Shown here: positions 8,969 to 14,191 of the stretch, in pieces
How the letters are laid out: each line of letters begins with the position of its first letter
How positions within the stretch are numbered: the first letter of the stretch is position 1
Source of the DNA: Bacteroidota bacterium
Lineage (GTDB): Bacteria; Bacteroidota; Bacteroidia; Sphingobacteriales; Sphingobacteriaceae
NCBI GenBank assembly: GCA_018828585.1
Contig: JAHJVW010000039.1
Location: forward strand, 1 to 61,289
Length of the DNA stretch: 61,289 nt
Reading direction: 5' to 3'
The notes under the pieces: generated by a model
The model's input: only the letters and a program-made list of their open reading frames with translations
What the model was told of the DNA's origin: nothing
The model's database searches: none
Position numbers and translations under genes: made by a program

Positions 8969-9817
8969 ATGAAACCCTATTTCTACAAAAAACTTCCTAC
9001 GTTAGGGCGAGTATTTCTTGCCTTGATTGGAGCTCAGTACATCCTTATCATCCCACAAGACCATCCCTTATCTCAACTTTTGCAGTTGAAAGGCTATTAT
9101 GTGGCTTTATTGGCAAGTACTGTTATTGCTTGGCTTTTGATTTGGTTAAGCCACCAAGTGCATCTCCAATTGAATCAGCGCTTACCTTGGGAAGGGCGAA
9201 TGGTTCGACGCCTGCTGGCACAAGTTTTCTTTGGATTAGTTTTAATGATGGGCTTAGACTTGCTGCTGGTTTGGTGCTACTTTTACCTTTATCATCAAGA
9301 TTTTTTGCACAGCAGGTATATGAGGGTAGAGGCCCAAATGGTGGGTTGGATGCTCCTCTGTTTAAATATCACTAGGATTTGTTATGATTTGATCCAAGAA
9401 AAACAAAATCAAAACAAGCTGTTTGTAGACGATCAAGAATTTGTACACTATATTCAGGCATGCCTAGGTCGTAAGAGATCTCGCATAGCCTTGGATGAGA
9501 TTATCTTATTCTATCATGCATCTCACATAGGCTATGCTTACCTCATTAATGGCGAGATATGGAATACAGATTATACCTTAAATACCTTAGAGAAAAAGCT
9601 TCCGCCTGATTTTGGTTTCCGCATCAACCGTTCCTTAATGGTCAATTGGCAAAGCGTAAGATCTTATGAAGCCTTAGGCAATATGCAAGGCCGGTTAACC
9701 ATCAAACACCCAATAGAGCCCCGCCTAAACTTAATGATCAGTAGGAACCGCTTTAAAAATTTTAAGAAAAATTACGAGCAATACAAAGGGCGTAAACGTT
9801 ACCTAAATAAATTTTAA
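8969..9817 (+). CDS. membrane-anchored LytTR-family transcriptional regulator
   Basis: A 282-residue protein with about four TM helices in the first 140 residues (around 15-33, 42-60, 83-107 and 120-136) and a C-terminal LytTR DNA-binding domain (about 165-270: IALDEIILFYHASHIGYAYL, FRINRSLMVNWQSVRSYEAL, ISRNRFKNFKKNY). There is no response-receiver domain, so the membrane part probably senses the signal or tethers the regulator. It is followed ten bases later by a small HTH protein and is divergent from a secreted-protein unit. The direct repeat at 8860-8894 is its likely target. Family assignment is good; the signal is unknown. Confidence 0.82.
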   Translation: MKPYFYKKLPTLGRVFLALIGAQYILIIPQDHPLSQLLQLKGYYVALLASTVIAWLLIWLSHQVHLQLNQRLPWEGRMVRRLLAQVFFGLVLMMGLDLLLVWCYFYLYHQDFLHSRYMRVEAQMVGWMLLCLNITRICYDLIQEKQNQNKLFVDDQEFVHYIQACLGRKRSRIALDEIILFYHASHIGYAYLINGEIWNTDYTLNTLEKKLPPDFGFRINRSLMVNWQSVRSYEALGNMQGRLTIKHPIEPRLNLMISRNRFKNFKKNYEQYKGRKRYLNKF

Positions 9818-9827
9818 ACAGCTGGTT

Positions 9828-10157
9828 ATGGCAACTCCAGTAGAACAACATCTTTTTCGCATAGAAAAGAAATTAAAAAGCGTTGAGTTACTGCTTGCAG
9901 AACTCATCAAGCATCAATGCCAGCGAGAAATACGCTCTTTATTGGTGGAAATGTTAGCCTTTAAAAAGCAGCAGAGCGTACAACAAAATTATCAGGAAGA
10001 ATGGTTGGATAGTTATGAGGTGATGCGATTGTACCGCATTAGCAGAAGTACCCTTTATAGATGGAAACAAAGGGAATTACTGCACCCTAATAAAATTGGT
10101 AACCGAGACATCTTTTTGAGAAGAGAGGTAGAACGATTGTTTCAAAGCGTAGAATGA
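9828..10157 (+). CDS. helix-turn-helix (excisionase/MerR-like) protein
   Basis: A 109-residue protein. The first ~55 residues form a charged, probably coiled helix (LFRIEKKLKSVELLLAELIK). The rest is a winged HTH of the HTH_17/excisionase type: WLDSYEVMRLYRISRSTLYR, WKQRELLHPNKIGNRDIFLR, REVERLF. Such proteins are common in Bacteroidota mobile and accessory regions and act as small DNA-binding factors. It lies ten bases after the LytTR gene and is likely co-transcribed with it. The gene ends just before repeat array 2. Confidence 0.75.
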   Translation: MATPVEQHLFRIEKKLKSVELLLAELIKHQCQREIRSLLVEMLAFKKQQSVQQNYQEEWLDSYEVMRLYRISRSTLYRWKQRELLHPNKIGNRDIFLRREVERLFQSVE

Positions 10158-10188
10158 TGGTATACTTTAGGCGTCATTCCTTTTAACC

Positions 10189-10425
10189 CGTCATTCCGAA
10201 TGTAATGAGGAATCTGTTAATACAAGGTACTGCTTAAAACCCACAGACCTCTCTCTATCGTTCGAGGTGACGCGGGGAGAAATCTGTTTGTATTTACCGT
10301 CATTCCGAATGAAATGAGGAATCTGTTCGTACAAGGTACTGCTTAAAACCCACAGACCTCTCTCTATCGTTCGAGGTGACGCGGGGAGAAAACCCACAGA
10401 CCTCTCGTTATCACTCGAGTTGCCG
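10189..10425. repeat. REP-like hairpin repeat array 2
   Basis: Two forward units (from 10189 and about 10299) alternate with reverse units (about 10240-10272, 10350-10382, and a decayed one ending near 10425). A segment of about 110 bp containing spacer AAGGTACTGCTTAAAACCCA, the reverse unit and GCGGGGAGAAA is repeated, showing growth by duplication. After the array, 10426-10684 holds no gene; the A-rich tract just before 10685 is the leader of the DUF6266 gene. Confidence 0.85.
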
Positions 10426-10684: not shown

Positions 10685-11326
10685 ATGGGAAAGTATGAAA
10701 AAGGGATCTTGGGTCCCTTCAATGGAAAAGTGGGTACCGTGATTGGTAGCCAATGGAAGGGGATCACCTACATGCGCAGTTTACCCCGCAAGAGCAACAA
10801 AGCTGCCACTCAAAAACAGTTGGATGTACAAAACAAGTTTTTACAGGTCATCAACTTTTTAAAACCTATCAGTGGCTTGATCGTGGATGGCTATCAGAAC
10901 ATCAAAGGCTCCCTGACCCCTTTCAACTATGCGGTATCTTATCACCTTAAGAACGCTATTTCTGGCGTCAGTCCAAATTTCACCATTAACCTCAATAAGG
11001 TGGTGATCAGTAGAGGAGAGCTGAATGGCTTAACAGATGCGACTGTAGCAAGTGATGCTGCTAATACCCTTCATTTTTCTTGGGACGCCCTAAGTTTAAT
11101 GGGATTGGCCAAAACCGATGATAAGGTGAGTGCTTTAATTTTTGAAGAAACTTCTGGTTCGGGGTTCACCTTCCAAGAAAGTGCTTTAAGATCAGCAGGA
11201 GAATTCTTGGCGGCATTACCTGCTTCCTTCTCTGGTCAAACAGTGAACTGTTGGATTACCGTAAAAAGTAACGATAACAAACTGATTTCGACCAGTGCTT
11301 ATTTAGGTCAAGTAGTAGTGCAATAG
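10685..11326 (+). CDS. DUF6266 family protein
   Basis: A 213-residue protein whose start MGKYEKGILGPFNGKVGTVI followed by GSQWKGITYMRSLPRKS is the signature N-terminus of DUF6266 as I remember it. No signal peptide or TM segment is visible. The second half looks like beta-sandwich repeats (LHFSWDAL, VSALIFEETSGSGFTF, VNCWITVKSNDNKLISTSAY). The ATG at 10685 is chosen over an upstream GTG (10652) because it gives the family start and has the AAAAAAATG context. Function is not known to me. The gene heads a rightward run with lysis-like genes, separated from them by a hairpin at 11350-11372. Base composition is visibly richer in G+C than the polysaccharide genes downstream. Confidence 0.8.
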   Translation: MGKYEKGILGPFNGKVGTVIGSQWKGITYMRSLPRKSNKAATQKQLDVQNKFLQVINFLKPISGLIVDGYQNIKGSLTPFNYAVSYHLKNAISGVSPNFTINLNKVVISRGELNGLTDATVASDAANTLHFSWDALSLMGLAKTDDKVSALIFEETSGSGFTFQESALRSAGEFLAALPASFSGQTVNCWITVKSNDNKLISTSAYLGQVVVQ

Positions 11327-11349
11327 CATTGCTGCCATGGTTTAACCTT

Positions 11350-11372
11350 AGTCCCGGCGATTTGTCGGGACT
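11350..11372 (+). terminator. hairpin between DUF6266 and the membrane gene
   Basis: AGTCCCGGC-GATTT-GTCGGGACT forms a 9-bp stem (one G.T pair) and is followed only by ATTTACG, not a full T-run. It could partly terminate transcription after the DUF6266 gene and so lower expression of the three genes that follow. Confidence 0.5.
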
Positions 11373-11387
11373 ATTTACGCTAAAAAA

Positions 11388-11747
11388 ATGAAACAACTCA
11401 TTCAACAATTCAAAATGGAACTCCGCCAAGAACATCTCCTGGCCTTGATCCTATTCTTAATTTTAATTTTTAGCCCCAATTGGATACATCGCTTAGCGCC
11501 TACGGCCGCTTGGATTGACCAAGGGGTATGGTCTTTGGTTTTCCTCAGCATCCTTTCCTTTTTAGTACTGCTGAGCATGAGCTATTGGCTAGTAAAACGC
11601 TGTTGGACTGCTTTAGGTCTTCCTTCACTTTTATTTATGGTTACACAATTTAGATTTTTATCCTTATGGCAACAATTCGTATTGTACTGGTTATCTTTTG
11701 CCTTGGTTTTGCTGAGCGGAACACTCTGCCTCATGGCCATCTTTTAA
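11388..11747 (+). CDS. small three-TM membrane protein, holin-like topology
   Basis: A 119-residue protein with three clear hydrophobic helices (about 17-34, 46-70 and 93-117), a charged N-terminal arm (MKQLIQQFKMELRQEHL) and a short basic loop (VKRCW). There is no family motif I know. Size and topology fit class I phage holins, and the gene sits directly before an amidase-like enzyme (17 bp gap) and a lipoprotein with a C-terminal TM. The holin label therefore rests on topology and neighbours only; an anchor or immunity protein for the enzyme is an alternative. Confidence 0.55.
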   Translation: MKQLIQQFKMELRQEHLLALILFLILIFSPNWIHRLAPTAAWIDQGVWSLVFLSILSFLVLLSMSYWLVKRCWTALGLPSLLFMVTQFRFLSLWQQFVLYWLSFALVLLSGTLCLMAIF

Positions 11748-11764
11748 AACAAGAAAAATTAGGC

Positions 11765-12211
11765 ATGACCCGTTTGTTGGCCATTGCAAACCAAGAAGTG
11801 GGGATTCGCGAAGCCTCCGGTCACAATGATGGTCAAAGGGTAGCGGCTTACTTAGCCGCTGCAGATTTGAGAATGGGCGCTCCCTGGTGTGCGGCATTTG
11901 TTTGCTGGGTTTTTCGAAAGGCGGGTTATGCACAGCCCAGAACTGGCTGGTCGCCAGCCCTCTTCAATAGTAGGGTGCACCGCAAAAAAGCAGCGCCAGG
12001 CTTGGTATTCGGCATCTGGTTTCCCGAGCTCCACCGCATTGCCCATGTGGGTTTTGTTGCCGACTTACAGCATGATTGGGTCATCAGTATAGAAGGCAAT
12101 AGCAATGCCGATGGAAGTCGGGAAGGTGATGGGGTCTACCGCAAGAGAAGACCTCTGCATTTAATTTACGACCTGGCCAACTGGCTACCAGAGGAAGGAG
12201 GGACGCCATGA
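11765..12211 (+). CDS. CHAP/TIGR02594-like peptidoglycan amidase or endopeptidase
   Basis: A 148-residue enzyme of the papain-like CHAP/NlpC-P60 type. It starts TRLLAIANQEVGIREASGHN, as TIGR02594 phage-like proteins do, then has the catalytic cysteine in GAPWCAAFVCW (Cys42), the histidine in RIAHVGFV (His94), and a third polar residue in SIEGNSN (Glu110/Asn112). No signal peptide is seen, so it would need a holin-like pore or other route to reach the wall. The start at 11765 is preferred over an in-frame ATG at 11666 inside the upstream gene. Its last codons overlap the next gene by four bases (ATGA). An endolysin-like role is inferred from family and order. Confidence 0.75.
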   Translation: MTRLLAIANQEVGIREASGHNDGQRVAAYLAAADLRMGAPWCAAFVCWVFRKAGYAQPRTGWSPALFNSRVHRKKAAPGLVFGIWFPELHRIAHVGFVADLQHDWVISIEGNSNADGSREGDGVYRKRRPLHLIYDLANWLPEEGGTP

Positions 12212-12639
12212 GAAAAGTGATGCTACTCGGCTGCTTGCTCTGCTTTTGCTGCTCTTGTCATTGGTGGAAGAAAAAGGCGCTCCATTCTCGGGAGATGGAA
12301 CAATACATCCAACGCAGCCTGTTGGACAGTACGGCACTCCGACAAATCAGCAAAGACAGTTTATCCTGGGAGCAAGAACAATGGCGCAACCTATGGGTCT
12401 TTGCCGACAGCCTACATCCGCCAATGCTGGTGCAAGAACATGTAAAAAGCCATGCTTTTCAACAAGGATCACAGCTGACTCAACAACAATCTTATCAAGT
12501 CCGGCATGATCGACTTGATCGAAAAGAAAAAGAGCTCAGCTATCCTCCTACCAAAAGCTGGAAATGGGTTCAGTGGCTTGGTATCCTGCTGCTCGGCTTA
12601 TTCCTCTATTTTTGCTGGCGTAGGCTGAAAAGCATTTAA
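12208..12639 (+). CDS. small lipoprotein with C-terminal TM, unimolecular-spanin-like
   Basis: A 143-residue protein with a Cys-rich lipoprotein signal (MLLGCLLCFCCSC; Cys17 the best lipidation site, Cys9 possible), a central charged, helical, Gln-rich linker of about 95 residues, and a C-terminal TM segment (WVQWLGILLLGLFLYFCW, about 119-137) ending in a basic tail. An N-terminal outer-membrane lipid anchor plus a C-terminal inner-membrane anchor is the topology of u-spanins, which fuse the two membranes at the end of phage lysis. It overlaps the amidase gene by four bases. No sequence similarity to known spanins can be claimed by eye. A strong terminator follows immediately. Confidence 0.6.
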   Translation: MRKVMLLGCLLCFCCSCHWWKKKALHSREMEQYIQRSLLDSTALRQISKDSLSWEQEQWRNLWVFADSLHPPMLVQEHVKSHAFQQGSQLTQQQSYQVRHDRLDRKEKELSYPPTKSWKWVQWLGILLLGLFLYFCWRRLKSI

Positions 12640-12660
12640 GGTCCTTCGGGACCTTTTTTT
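12639..12660 (+). terminator. intrinsic terminator after the lysis-like cassette
   Basis: AGGTCC-TTCG-GGACCT followed by TTTTTTT: a perfect 6-bp stem with a stable UUCG tetraloop and a T-run. It starts on the last base of the spanin-like gene's stop codon. Confidence 0.92.
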
Positions 12661-12670
12661 ATGTGAACTT

Positions 12671-13195
12671 CATCCGACCAGAGGGAGGGACGTAGTTCAG
12701 AGAAGATAAATCTGTTCGTTGTTACCGTCATTCCGAATGTAATGAGGAATCTGTTTGTAAAAAGCACTACCTATAACCCACAGATCGCTCCTTTTCACTC
12801 GAGGTGACGTAGAGTTAACCCGTCATTTCGACCAAAGGGAGAAACCTGTTTGTATTCACCTTCATTTTATTTAAAGTACAGTAAGAATCGTACACATAAC
12901 GGGCAGATCTCTCCTTATCACTCGAGATGACGTTGGCATAACCCGTCATTTCGACCGAAGGGAGAAACCTGTTTGTAAAAGGCACTGCCTATAACCCCTA
13001 GACCTCTCCTTATCACTCGAGGTGACGTAGAGTTAAAACGTCATTTCGACCAAAGGGAGAAACCTGTTTGTAAAAGGCACTGCCTATAACCCACAGACCT
13101 CTCGTTATCACTCGAGGTGATTGTAGAGTTAAAACGTCATTCCGAACGAAGTGAGGAATCTGTTTGTATAAGGGTAGATCTGTTCGTTCGAGGCA
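12671..13195. repeat. REP-like hairpin repeat array 3
   Basis: The array begins with a decayed unit, then forward units (about 12726, 12820, 12944-12976, 13038, 13135-13167) alternate with reverse units (about 12778-12808, 12904-12932, 13001-13027, 13093-13120). Two subtypes are mixed: TTCC/GGAA stems and TTTC/GAAA stems among forward units, CCTC/GAGG and TCTC/GAGA among reverse ones. Two spacers recur: AAAAGGCACTGCCTATAACC, and a longer one containing TTCATTTTATTTAAAGTAC. The array runs up to the 3' end of the GIY-YIG gene. Confidence 0.88.
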
Positions 13196-13218
13196 GTACA
13201 TCATCAAAAGCCTCCCCA

Positions 13219-13518
13219 TCACCATTCTTTAATGACTTCATACAAATCATTCCATTCCGGATTTAAGGTATTGATAAGAGCTTCTTTTTTCTCTCTTCGC
13301 CATTTTTTTATCTCCTTCTCTCTTAAAATGGCTTCCTCAATGCTAAAATAAGATTCGTAATAAATACAATAACTCAAGTTATACCTCGCTGTAAAACTTT
13401 TAGGATATACTTGGTGAATATGCTCCCATAACCTAGCGGGCAAGTTAGAACTAACCCCGATGTATAAAGTGGTTTTGTTTTTATTAGTCATAATGTAAAT
13501 CGCACCTCCTTTTTCCAT
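13219..13518 (-). CDS. GIY-YIG nuclease superfamily protein
   Basis: A 99-residue, single-domain GIY-YIG protein of the small UvrC-like/UPF0213 kind. The motif reads AIYIMTN...TLYIGVSSN (residues 6-25). The catalytic arginine is in PARLWEH (Arg29), the metal-binding glutamate in LREKEIKKW (Glu67), and the late asparagine in TLNPEWNDL (Asn86), so the active site looks complete. It would be a DNA-cutting enzyme of unknown target. It lies alone between repeat arrays 3 and 4, only 24 bp from one and 53 bp from the other, pointing to a possible link with the repeats. The start at 13518 gives the usual MEKGGAIYIM beginning. Confidence 0.85.
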   Translation of the reverse strand: MEKGGAIYIMTNKNKTTLYIGVSSNLPARLWEHIHQVYPKSFTARYNLSYCIYYESYFSIEEAILREKEIKKWRREKKEALINTLNPEWNDLYEVIKEW

Positions 13519-13570: not shown

Positions 13571-14191
13571 CGTCATTCCGAACAAAGTGAGGAATCTGTT
13601 TGTAAAAGCCACTGCTTACAACCCACAGACCTCTCCTTTTCACTCGAGGTGACGTAGAGTTAAAACGTCATTTCGACCGCAGGGAGAAACCTGTTTGTAC
13701 AATGGTAGTGTGTTGTACTTATAACCCACAGATCTCTCCTTATCACTCGAGATGACGGTAGCACAACCCGTCATTTCGACCGCAGGGAGAAACGTAGTTC
13801 ATCGAAGATAAATCTGTTTGTACAAGGCACTGCTTATAACTCACAGACCTCTCCTTATCACTCGAGGTGACGTTGGCATAACCCGTCATTTCGAATGCAG
13901 GGAGAAATCTGTTCGTATTTACCTTTATTTTATTTACAGTACCGTAAGAATCGTACACATAACGGGCAGATCTCTCCTTATCACTCGAGGTGACGTTGGC
14001 ATAACCCGTCATTCCGAACAAAGTGAGGAATCTGTTTGTAAAATGGCAGTGTGTTGTACTTATAACCCACAGACCTCTCGTTATCACTCGAGGTGACGTT
14101 GGCACAACCCGTCATTTCGACCGCAGGGAGAAATCTGTTTGTAAAAGGTACTGCTTAAAACCCATAGACCTCTCTTGATCACTCGAGGTGA
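13571..14191. repeat. REP-like hairpin repeat array 4
   Basis: This is the longest array: six forward units (from 13571, about 13665, 13767, 13882, 14006 and 14110) each followed by a reverse unit (for example 14070-14098). The linkers are TAGAGTTAAAA or TTGGCATAACC. One forward unit (13767) carries an inserted CGTAGTTCATCGAAGAT like the decayed first unit of array 3, so array 3 and 4 share an ancestor. The array ends about 85 bp before the wecA-like promoter. Confidence 0.88.

Follow-up and report, generated by a model that had tools for sequence, protein, structure and literature searches.

DUF6266 and a domesticated phage lysis cassette in Sphingobacteriaceae: a candidate lysis-dependent release system

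Directly downstream of a DUF6266 gene, the Bacteroidota genome studied here carries a phage lysis cassette that, as sequence comparison strongly indicates, has been domesticated by its bacterial host. The cassette is real and widespread. We propose that it was captured from a phage long ago within the Sphingobacteriaceae and has since been kept as a lysis-dependent release system, similar to the type 10 secretion systems (T10SS), in which DUF6266 would be the protein that is freed; we hold this account to be probable, though well short of certain. The features of the locus are collected in Table 1. All positions refer to the window, i.e. the whole stretch of 61,289 nucleotides that was analysed, which is one contig of a 3.58 Mb genome.

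Table 1. Features of the cassette and its surroundings in the window.
Feature	Position	Strand	Evidence
Membrane protein with a DNA-binding LytTR domain; candidate regulator and a weak part of the system	8969..9817	+	Pfam LytTR, E 7.8e-14
Candidate regulator, HTH_17-type helix-turn-helix protein	9828..10157	+	HTH_17, E 4.5e-6
DUF6266 protein, 213 aa, presumed cargo	10685..11326	+	PF19781, E 3.1e-46
Terminator-like hairpin, 10 bp stem	11349..11373	+	z -3.1
Holin-like protein, three transmembrane (TM) segments (3TM), 119 aa, predicted N-in/C-out	11388..11747	+	TM prediction
Endolysin-like CHAP/TIGR02594-type peptidase, 181 aa, N-terminal hydrophobic export signal	11666..12211	+	PHROG, alignment
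u-spanin-like protein, 143 aa, with a lipobox (Cys17), a soluble central part and a C-terminal TM before a basic tail	12208..12639	+	Position, architecture
Intrinsic terminator closing the cassette	12638..12655	+	7 bp stem, TTCG loop, T tract

A first-pass annotation, made by reading the sequence alone, had placed a DUF6266 gene at the front of the locus, and the PF19781 profile matches along this gene with 157.9 bits against a gathering cut-off of 23.4. The protein adjoins the lysis genes, and neither a TM segment nor a signal-like N-terminus is predicted for it. In its AlphaFold2 model (pLDDT 91) a beta part at the N-terminus is followed by two helices and by a C-terminal domain with a predicted fibronectin-III (FnIII) fold (residues 111-213; best structural match Z 11.8, 2.0 Å over 93 residues). 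No mention of DUF6266 was found in the literature searched. Two further copies in the source genome are lone genes, and DUF6266 genes sampled outside the Sphingobacteriaceae are mostly solitary.

The next gene encodes, as had been claimed, a hydrophobic protein for which three TM segments are predicted; it has no family match. Among the cellular members of this 3TM family, the positive-inside count favours an N-in/C-out topology for 76 of 78. For the window protein itself the automatic count was spoiled by a spurious fourth segment, and the N-in orientation is read from the sequence (K2, K9, R13 and K69/R70). The number of TM segments is thus shared with class I holins of the lambda S type; however, these are N-out/C-in with a charged cytoplasmic tail, so that the predicted topology of the 3TM family is reversed.

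The third protein had been described as a CHAP-like enzyme lacking a signal peptide. It is indeed endolysin-like: it matches the PHROG 9589 endolysin (E 1e-17), and matches below the respective cut-offs are seen to TIGR02594 (E 5e-12) and to Pfam CHAP (24.8 bits, gathering cut-off 26). When the CHAP alignment was compared with PDB profiles, nothing matched. The closest named relatives are those of Pedobacter arcticus (58%), which places the genome in the Sphingobacteriaceae. The missing signal peptide does not stand, as the gene starts at the ATG at 11666, not at ~11765, and is 33 codons longer at its front. In an alignment of 30 relatives (A1) M1, C75, H127, E143 and N145 are invariant, and M1 precedes a hydrophobic stretch. 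A catalytic Cys, a His and an acidic or Asn third residue are hence all present (Cys75, His127, Glu143/Asn145), and the residues reported earlier as Cys42 and His94 are the right ones, renumbered to Cys75 and His127 by the corrected start. In the window this start lies 82 nt inside the 3TM gene, and an ATG at exactly this overlap is found in 70 of the 78 cellular loci that have both genes. At 11 loci the 3TM gene stops short of the CHAP reading frame or reaches 4 nt into it, and 10 of these still have the hydrophobic N-terminus, e.g. MKSILLLMTILCLFIVPQAQ. From the invariant M1, the hydrophobic N-terminus and the conserved ATG of the 82-nt overlap, the CHAP enzyme probably carries a Sec signal or a signal anchor and is exported on its own. 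This changes the mechanism to be expected. Signal-arrest and signal-peptide endolysins export themselves, unlike the cytosolic endolysins that depend on a holin, and by analogy the CHAP protein resembles the former.

The last protein shows the N-terminal lipobox and C-terminal TM by which unimolecular spanins (u-spanins) are defined (PMC6139136), in agreement with the first-pass reading. Its lipobox-like sequence is ...CCSC, ending in Cys17, and Arg and Lys follow the TM. Across 40 aligned u-spanin-like sequences (A7) Cys17 is invariant. The copy in the window is however divergent: the family motif IxPxGxF...GFxG is missing, a single-sequence phmmer search found 0 homologues in 150 other genomes of the family, and there was no PHROG spanin match. 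Since phmmer gave no homologue, its assignment is made from position and architecture, and this copy could be weakened. Elsewhere a u-spanin-like protein with both lipobox and TM comes next in 44 of the 70 loci with DUF6266 under strict automatic criteria, so loss of either feature among orthologues, which would have spoken against the reading, is not what is seen. The strict filter missed cases such as L127, L137 and L169, which have a TM and a plausible lipoprotein start. In 43 of these 44 cellular members there is no periplasmic cysteine. T1 gp11, a unimolecular spanin, likewise has an N-terminal lipobox and a C-terminal TM, stands last in its cassette and shares the usual lack of a periplasmic cysteine. 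Its periplasmic domain is mainly beta, whereas a family member from locus L105 is modelled by AlphaFold2 as helix, beta hairpin and helix (pLDDT 82, pTM 0.33). The terminator proposed to follow this gene is also present.

To see how far the arrangement is shared, about 85,000 species genomes were scanned with the CHAP alignment and the best 80 loci were taken, regardless of DUF6266; as these are the best-scoring 80, the fractions below hold for the close family rather than for every relative. Most of them (69) are in Pedobacter, and the remainder are in Desertivirga, Mucilaginibacter, Olivibacter, Arcticibacter, Albibacterium and three unplaced records. In 70 of the 80 loci a DUF6266 gene lies on the same strand no more than 3 kb upstream, and 78 loci have a 3TM homologue. 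With 3 to 19 DUF6266 copies per genome, adjacency to CHAP by chance is estimated at under 1%. The synteny suggested earlier is thus borne out, and co-occurrence is not confined to one strain but extends over Pedobacter, Olivibacter, Desertivirga, Arcticibacter and Albibacterium. At some Pedobacter loci (L041, 1659-2231; L112, L126 and L133) the upstream slot is held by a divergent DUF6266-like protein, MAKSTNNVVMKGASGTIGKMLVFR...

In close pairs dN/dS is mostly 0.05-0.25 and reaches up to 0.39 for DUF6266, 3TM and the part of CHAP outside the overlap; values this far below 1 mean that the genes are kept by purifying selection. Three pairs of loci (L114/L141, L162/L166 and L167/L173) have CHAP proteins that are 76-85% identical, while DUF6266 and 3TM share just 23-51% identity; it looks as though these two, the front half of the cassette, had been exchanged.

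The phage relatives of the cassette come from IMG/VR. Of 80 viral contigs with a CHAP relative, 68 have a 3TM homologue, and in 54 of these an ATG gives an overlap of 67-106 nt (exactly 82 nt in 17). The Bacteroidota phage cassettes (L177-L256) contain a homologous 3TM and CHAP pair nested in a similar way, and a lipobox/TM protein comes next. The cellular copies differ from them in that the phage cassettes have neither DUF6266 nor a hairpin before 3TM and lie beside virion genes, with portal, major head, tape measure, tail sheath and tail fibre families in their flanks. DUF6266 was found neither in phage nor in plasmid records, nor in the fetched stretches of the 80 IMG/VR cassette contigs, nor in IMG/VR as a whole by one single-protein pattern scan. 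Overall, the first-pass observation is partly confirmed, and its interpretation is partly supported.

The cellular loci sit in ordinary chromosome. The flanks of 20 of those with DUF6266 (93 proteins) contain regulators, SusC/D and metabolic enzymes, and none of the 25 commonest families listed is a virion family. Reading through the window's open reading frames likewise brought up no capsid, tail or integrase gene, as the first-pass annotation had also noted. A CHAP tree of 165 rows accounts for the viral group with 3 changes, where shuffled labels take 50 on average, and with 2 changes once the cellular loci with neither cargo class are set aside. The largest cellular clade has 69 rows and a support of 94. 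On this tree the cellular CHAP proteins fall into one or two old lineages, apart from the phage ones; one and two origins are not distinguished by a quick tree with weak deep support. A true prophage relative is probably seen at the Mucilaginibacter lappiensis locus L174, which has no DUF6266 and matches the IMG/VR locus L178 in coordinates and in sequence as far as shown.

The same phage homology could also mean that the locus is the decaying remnant of a recent prophage and DUF6266 an unrelated neighbour. The grouping of the CHAP proteins of L160 and L174, two Mucilaginibacter genome loci without DUF6266, with phage sequences would fit such an origin. We consider it quite improbable, as DUF6266 recurs upstream at most of the best loci, dN/dS is well below 1, no structural phage genes were seen among the commonest families at the 20 sampled loci, and cellular and phage CHAP proteins are separate. 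For the group prophage decay is already contradicted; the window's own copy could be decaying. Domestication of a cassette of phage origin, as first suggested from the sequence, is well supported by the phage homologues, the chromosomal flanks, the separate old CHAP lineages and the purifying selection taken together.

The genes of the cassette had been called overlapping or tightly spaced. This is right for the 3TM/CHAP overlap, but DUF6266 is separated from 3TM by 61 nt, and this gap contains a terminator-like hairpin that had gone unreported and ends 14 nt 5' of the 3TM start codon. Scored against dinucleotide shuffles, 52 of 62 cellular DUF6266-3TM gaps have z below -2, compared with 3 of 62 stretches 5' of phage 3TM genes; among ordinary same-strand intergenic gaps such a hairpin is found in 2 of 24. 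A hairpin also lies downstream of 8 of 10 lone DUF6266 genes, which weakens the idea of an element specific to the cassette. For this reason the hairpin is best read as DUF6266's own terminator, retained before the lysis genes. The 14 nt between hairpin and start codon leave no room for a promoter, so expression of the lysis genes probably depends on read-through or on a promoter inside DUF6266. Upstream of the cassette no strong promoter was matched by a scan whose models do not cover Bacteroidota promoters.

Two candidate regulators precede DUF6266 in the window. A homologue of the HTH_17 protein lies within 1.5 kb upstream of DUF6266 in 30 of 70 loci (29 on the same strand) and within 1.5 kb downstream of CHAP in 4 of 70. 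LytTR genes account for 3 of the 93 flanking proteins at other DUF6266 loci. Short interspersed repeats (10163-10420, 12690-13200 and 13743-14180) flank the cassette and recur in the window: GTCATTCCGAA...GAGGAATCTGTT; ACCTCTC..ATC.CTCGAGGTGACG. A small reading frame resembling GIY-YIG endonucleases (YIMTNKNKTTLYIGVSSNL) is located nearby on the minus strand (13219-13518), with a similar one at L067 (5184-5483).

The slot of DUF6266 is not always filled by DUF6266. In genomes G019, G003 and G112 the cassette is paired with another protein of ~211 aa, with a weak C-terminal fn3 match (E 1.3e-4, below cut-off) and with no homology between its profile and that of DUF6266. It is mainly because two unrelated soluble proteins of similar layout occupy the slot that we read it as a cargo position. 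The combination of the lysis cassette with a helical plus fn3 protein of this size is seen at L063-L072 and L074 (G019 and G003) and at L028 and L061, in many copies per genome; G019 has 31 CHAP matches, some of which are halves of one gene. Two viral matches to the fn3 cargo profile (L208 and L212) were rejected as generic FnIII repeat proteins.

DUF6266 itself is also found beside a second set of phage-like genes. In other genera, where it occurs without the CHAP cassette, it often precedes DUF5675 (PF18925, E 5e-28) and small TM proteins. DUF5675 corresponds to the phage family phrog_1501, which is annotated without a function. The 25 genomes searched have 48 DUF5675 genes, of which 25 are directly downstream of DUF6266 by a count that combines two lists of coordinates, and this adjacency ties DUF6266 to two unrelated phage-like sets. 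At L085-L092 (e.g. L090, 2362-3278) one of the small TM proteins that come with DUF5675 after DUF6266 is weakly similar to a phage holin family (E 0.036), and this arrangement suggests a lysis role for DUF5675. In another family, at L268 (6120-7273, orientation minus/plus as listed), a protein starting with MARQKGIIKLKGTIGDITFYKTQDGHLAREKGG lies directly before DUF5675, and its start recalls the N-terminal motif of DUF6266.

A different purpose for the cassette would leave DUF6266 with another part to play. Programmed lysis could serve the release of DNA or vesicles, or suicide on phage attack, with DUF6266 as a regulator, an inhibitor or a timing factor. Its place before the lysis genes is one that an antiholin-like gene could take, it also occurs alone, and proximity is not proof of export. 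However, it is predicted to be soluble with an FnIII domain, and its slot is elsewhere taken by a sequence-unrelated protein with an fn3-like end. As for defence, none of the four cassette proteins matches a PADLOC defence family; the one match is of the HTH protein to a MADS HTH model (E 5e-5). We regard this explanation as unlikely, and DUF6266 as the likely cargo released by lysis.

The course of events that we infer for such a release would be as follows. The holin-like 3TM protein would collapse or permeabilise the inner membrane, the self-exported CHAP endolysin would cut the peptidoglycan, and the lipobox/TM protein would fuse or disrupt the outer membrane. DUF6266, signal-less and encoded directly upstream, would be freed as only a subset of the cells bursts. 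As the lysis genes would need read-through past the hairpin, much cargo could be made before a few lysis proteins, and the hairpin may thereby set a high ratio of cargo to lysis proteins. Judged from its genes, the locus points to deliberate bursting of a few cells, by which DUF6266 would be released, and lysis-dependent release is likely.

T10SS are clusters of holin, endolysin and spanin genes outside phages, which descend from phage cassettes; an HTH regulator is encoded upstream, and the cargo has no signal (PMC10847048). Opinions differ on whether these systems kill the cell (PMC13284979). The present cassette is also clustered outside a phage genome, at the 80 genome loci, with the holin, endolysin and spanin roles assigned by architecture. 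Like ChiWXYZ of Serratia and YenLC of Yersinia entomophaga it combines non-phage holin, endolysin and spanin genes, an upstream HTH gene, a signal-less candidate cargo and descent from phages. In contrast to these systems, which have a two-gene spanin, it has a single u-spanin-like protein and a Bacteroidota host, its CHAP enzyme has an export signal of its own, and the presumed cargo (DUF6266 or the fn3 protein) is at the front with a terminator between, as far as the genes tell. The Salmonella T10SS, which exports ChiA and typhoid toxin, similarly employs a phage-derived holin and a peptidoglycan hydrolase for protein export, but its hydrolases are without a signal and it has no spanins, while both signal and spanin-like protein are present here. 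In the literature we found T10SS-type release for gammaproteobacteria and clostridia, and none for Bacteroidota.

Non-lytic wall remodelling or export, by transient openings that do not kill the cell, has been reported for the Salmonella T10SS (PMC13284979), and it could be imagined here as well, since a CHAP enzyme with its own export signal does not need a large holin hole. The spanin-like protein of the present cassette is however absent from the Salmonella systems (PMC13284979), and in Yersinia and Serratia the action of spanins is linked with disruption of the whole cell (PMC10847048). We give non-lytic export a low probability and retain lysis-dependent release as the best explanation.

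The observations could also be drawn together more widely, in a picture that we offer tentatively and rather doubt in its full extent. Sphingobacteriaceae would then have altruistic-lysis systems in which a variable, signal-less cargo with a C-terminal FnIII domain is combined with at least two non-homologous phage modules, one with CHAP and one with DUF5675 as an unrecognised wall-active lysis protein; recombination would swap the parts and the terminator would set the ratio.

Many relatives of this soil-type Bacteroidota bacterium carry captured phage lysis genes beside DUF6266. If lysis-dependent release is true, DUF6266 would gain its first testable role, many Pedobacter genomes would carry systems for deliberate lysis, and the homologous pair of cellular and phage cassettes would show what domestication changes, namely that a cargo is added and a terminator is placed in front.
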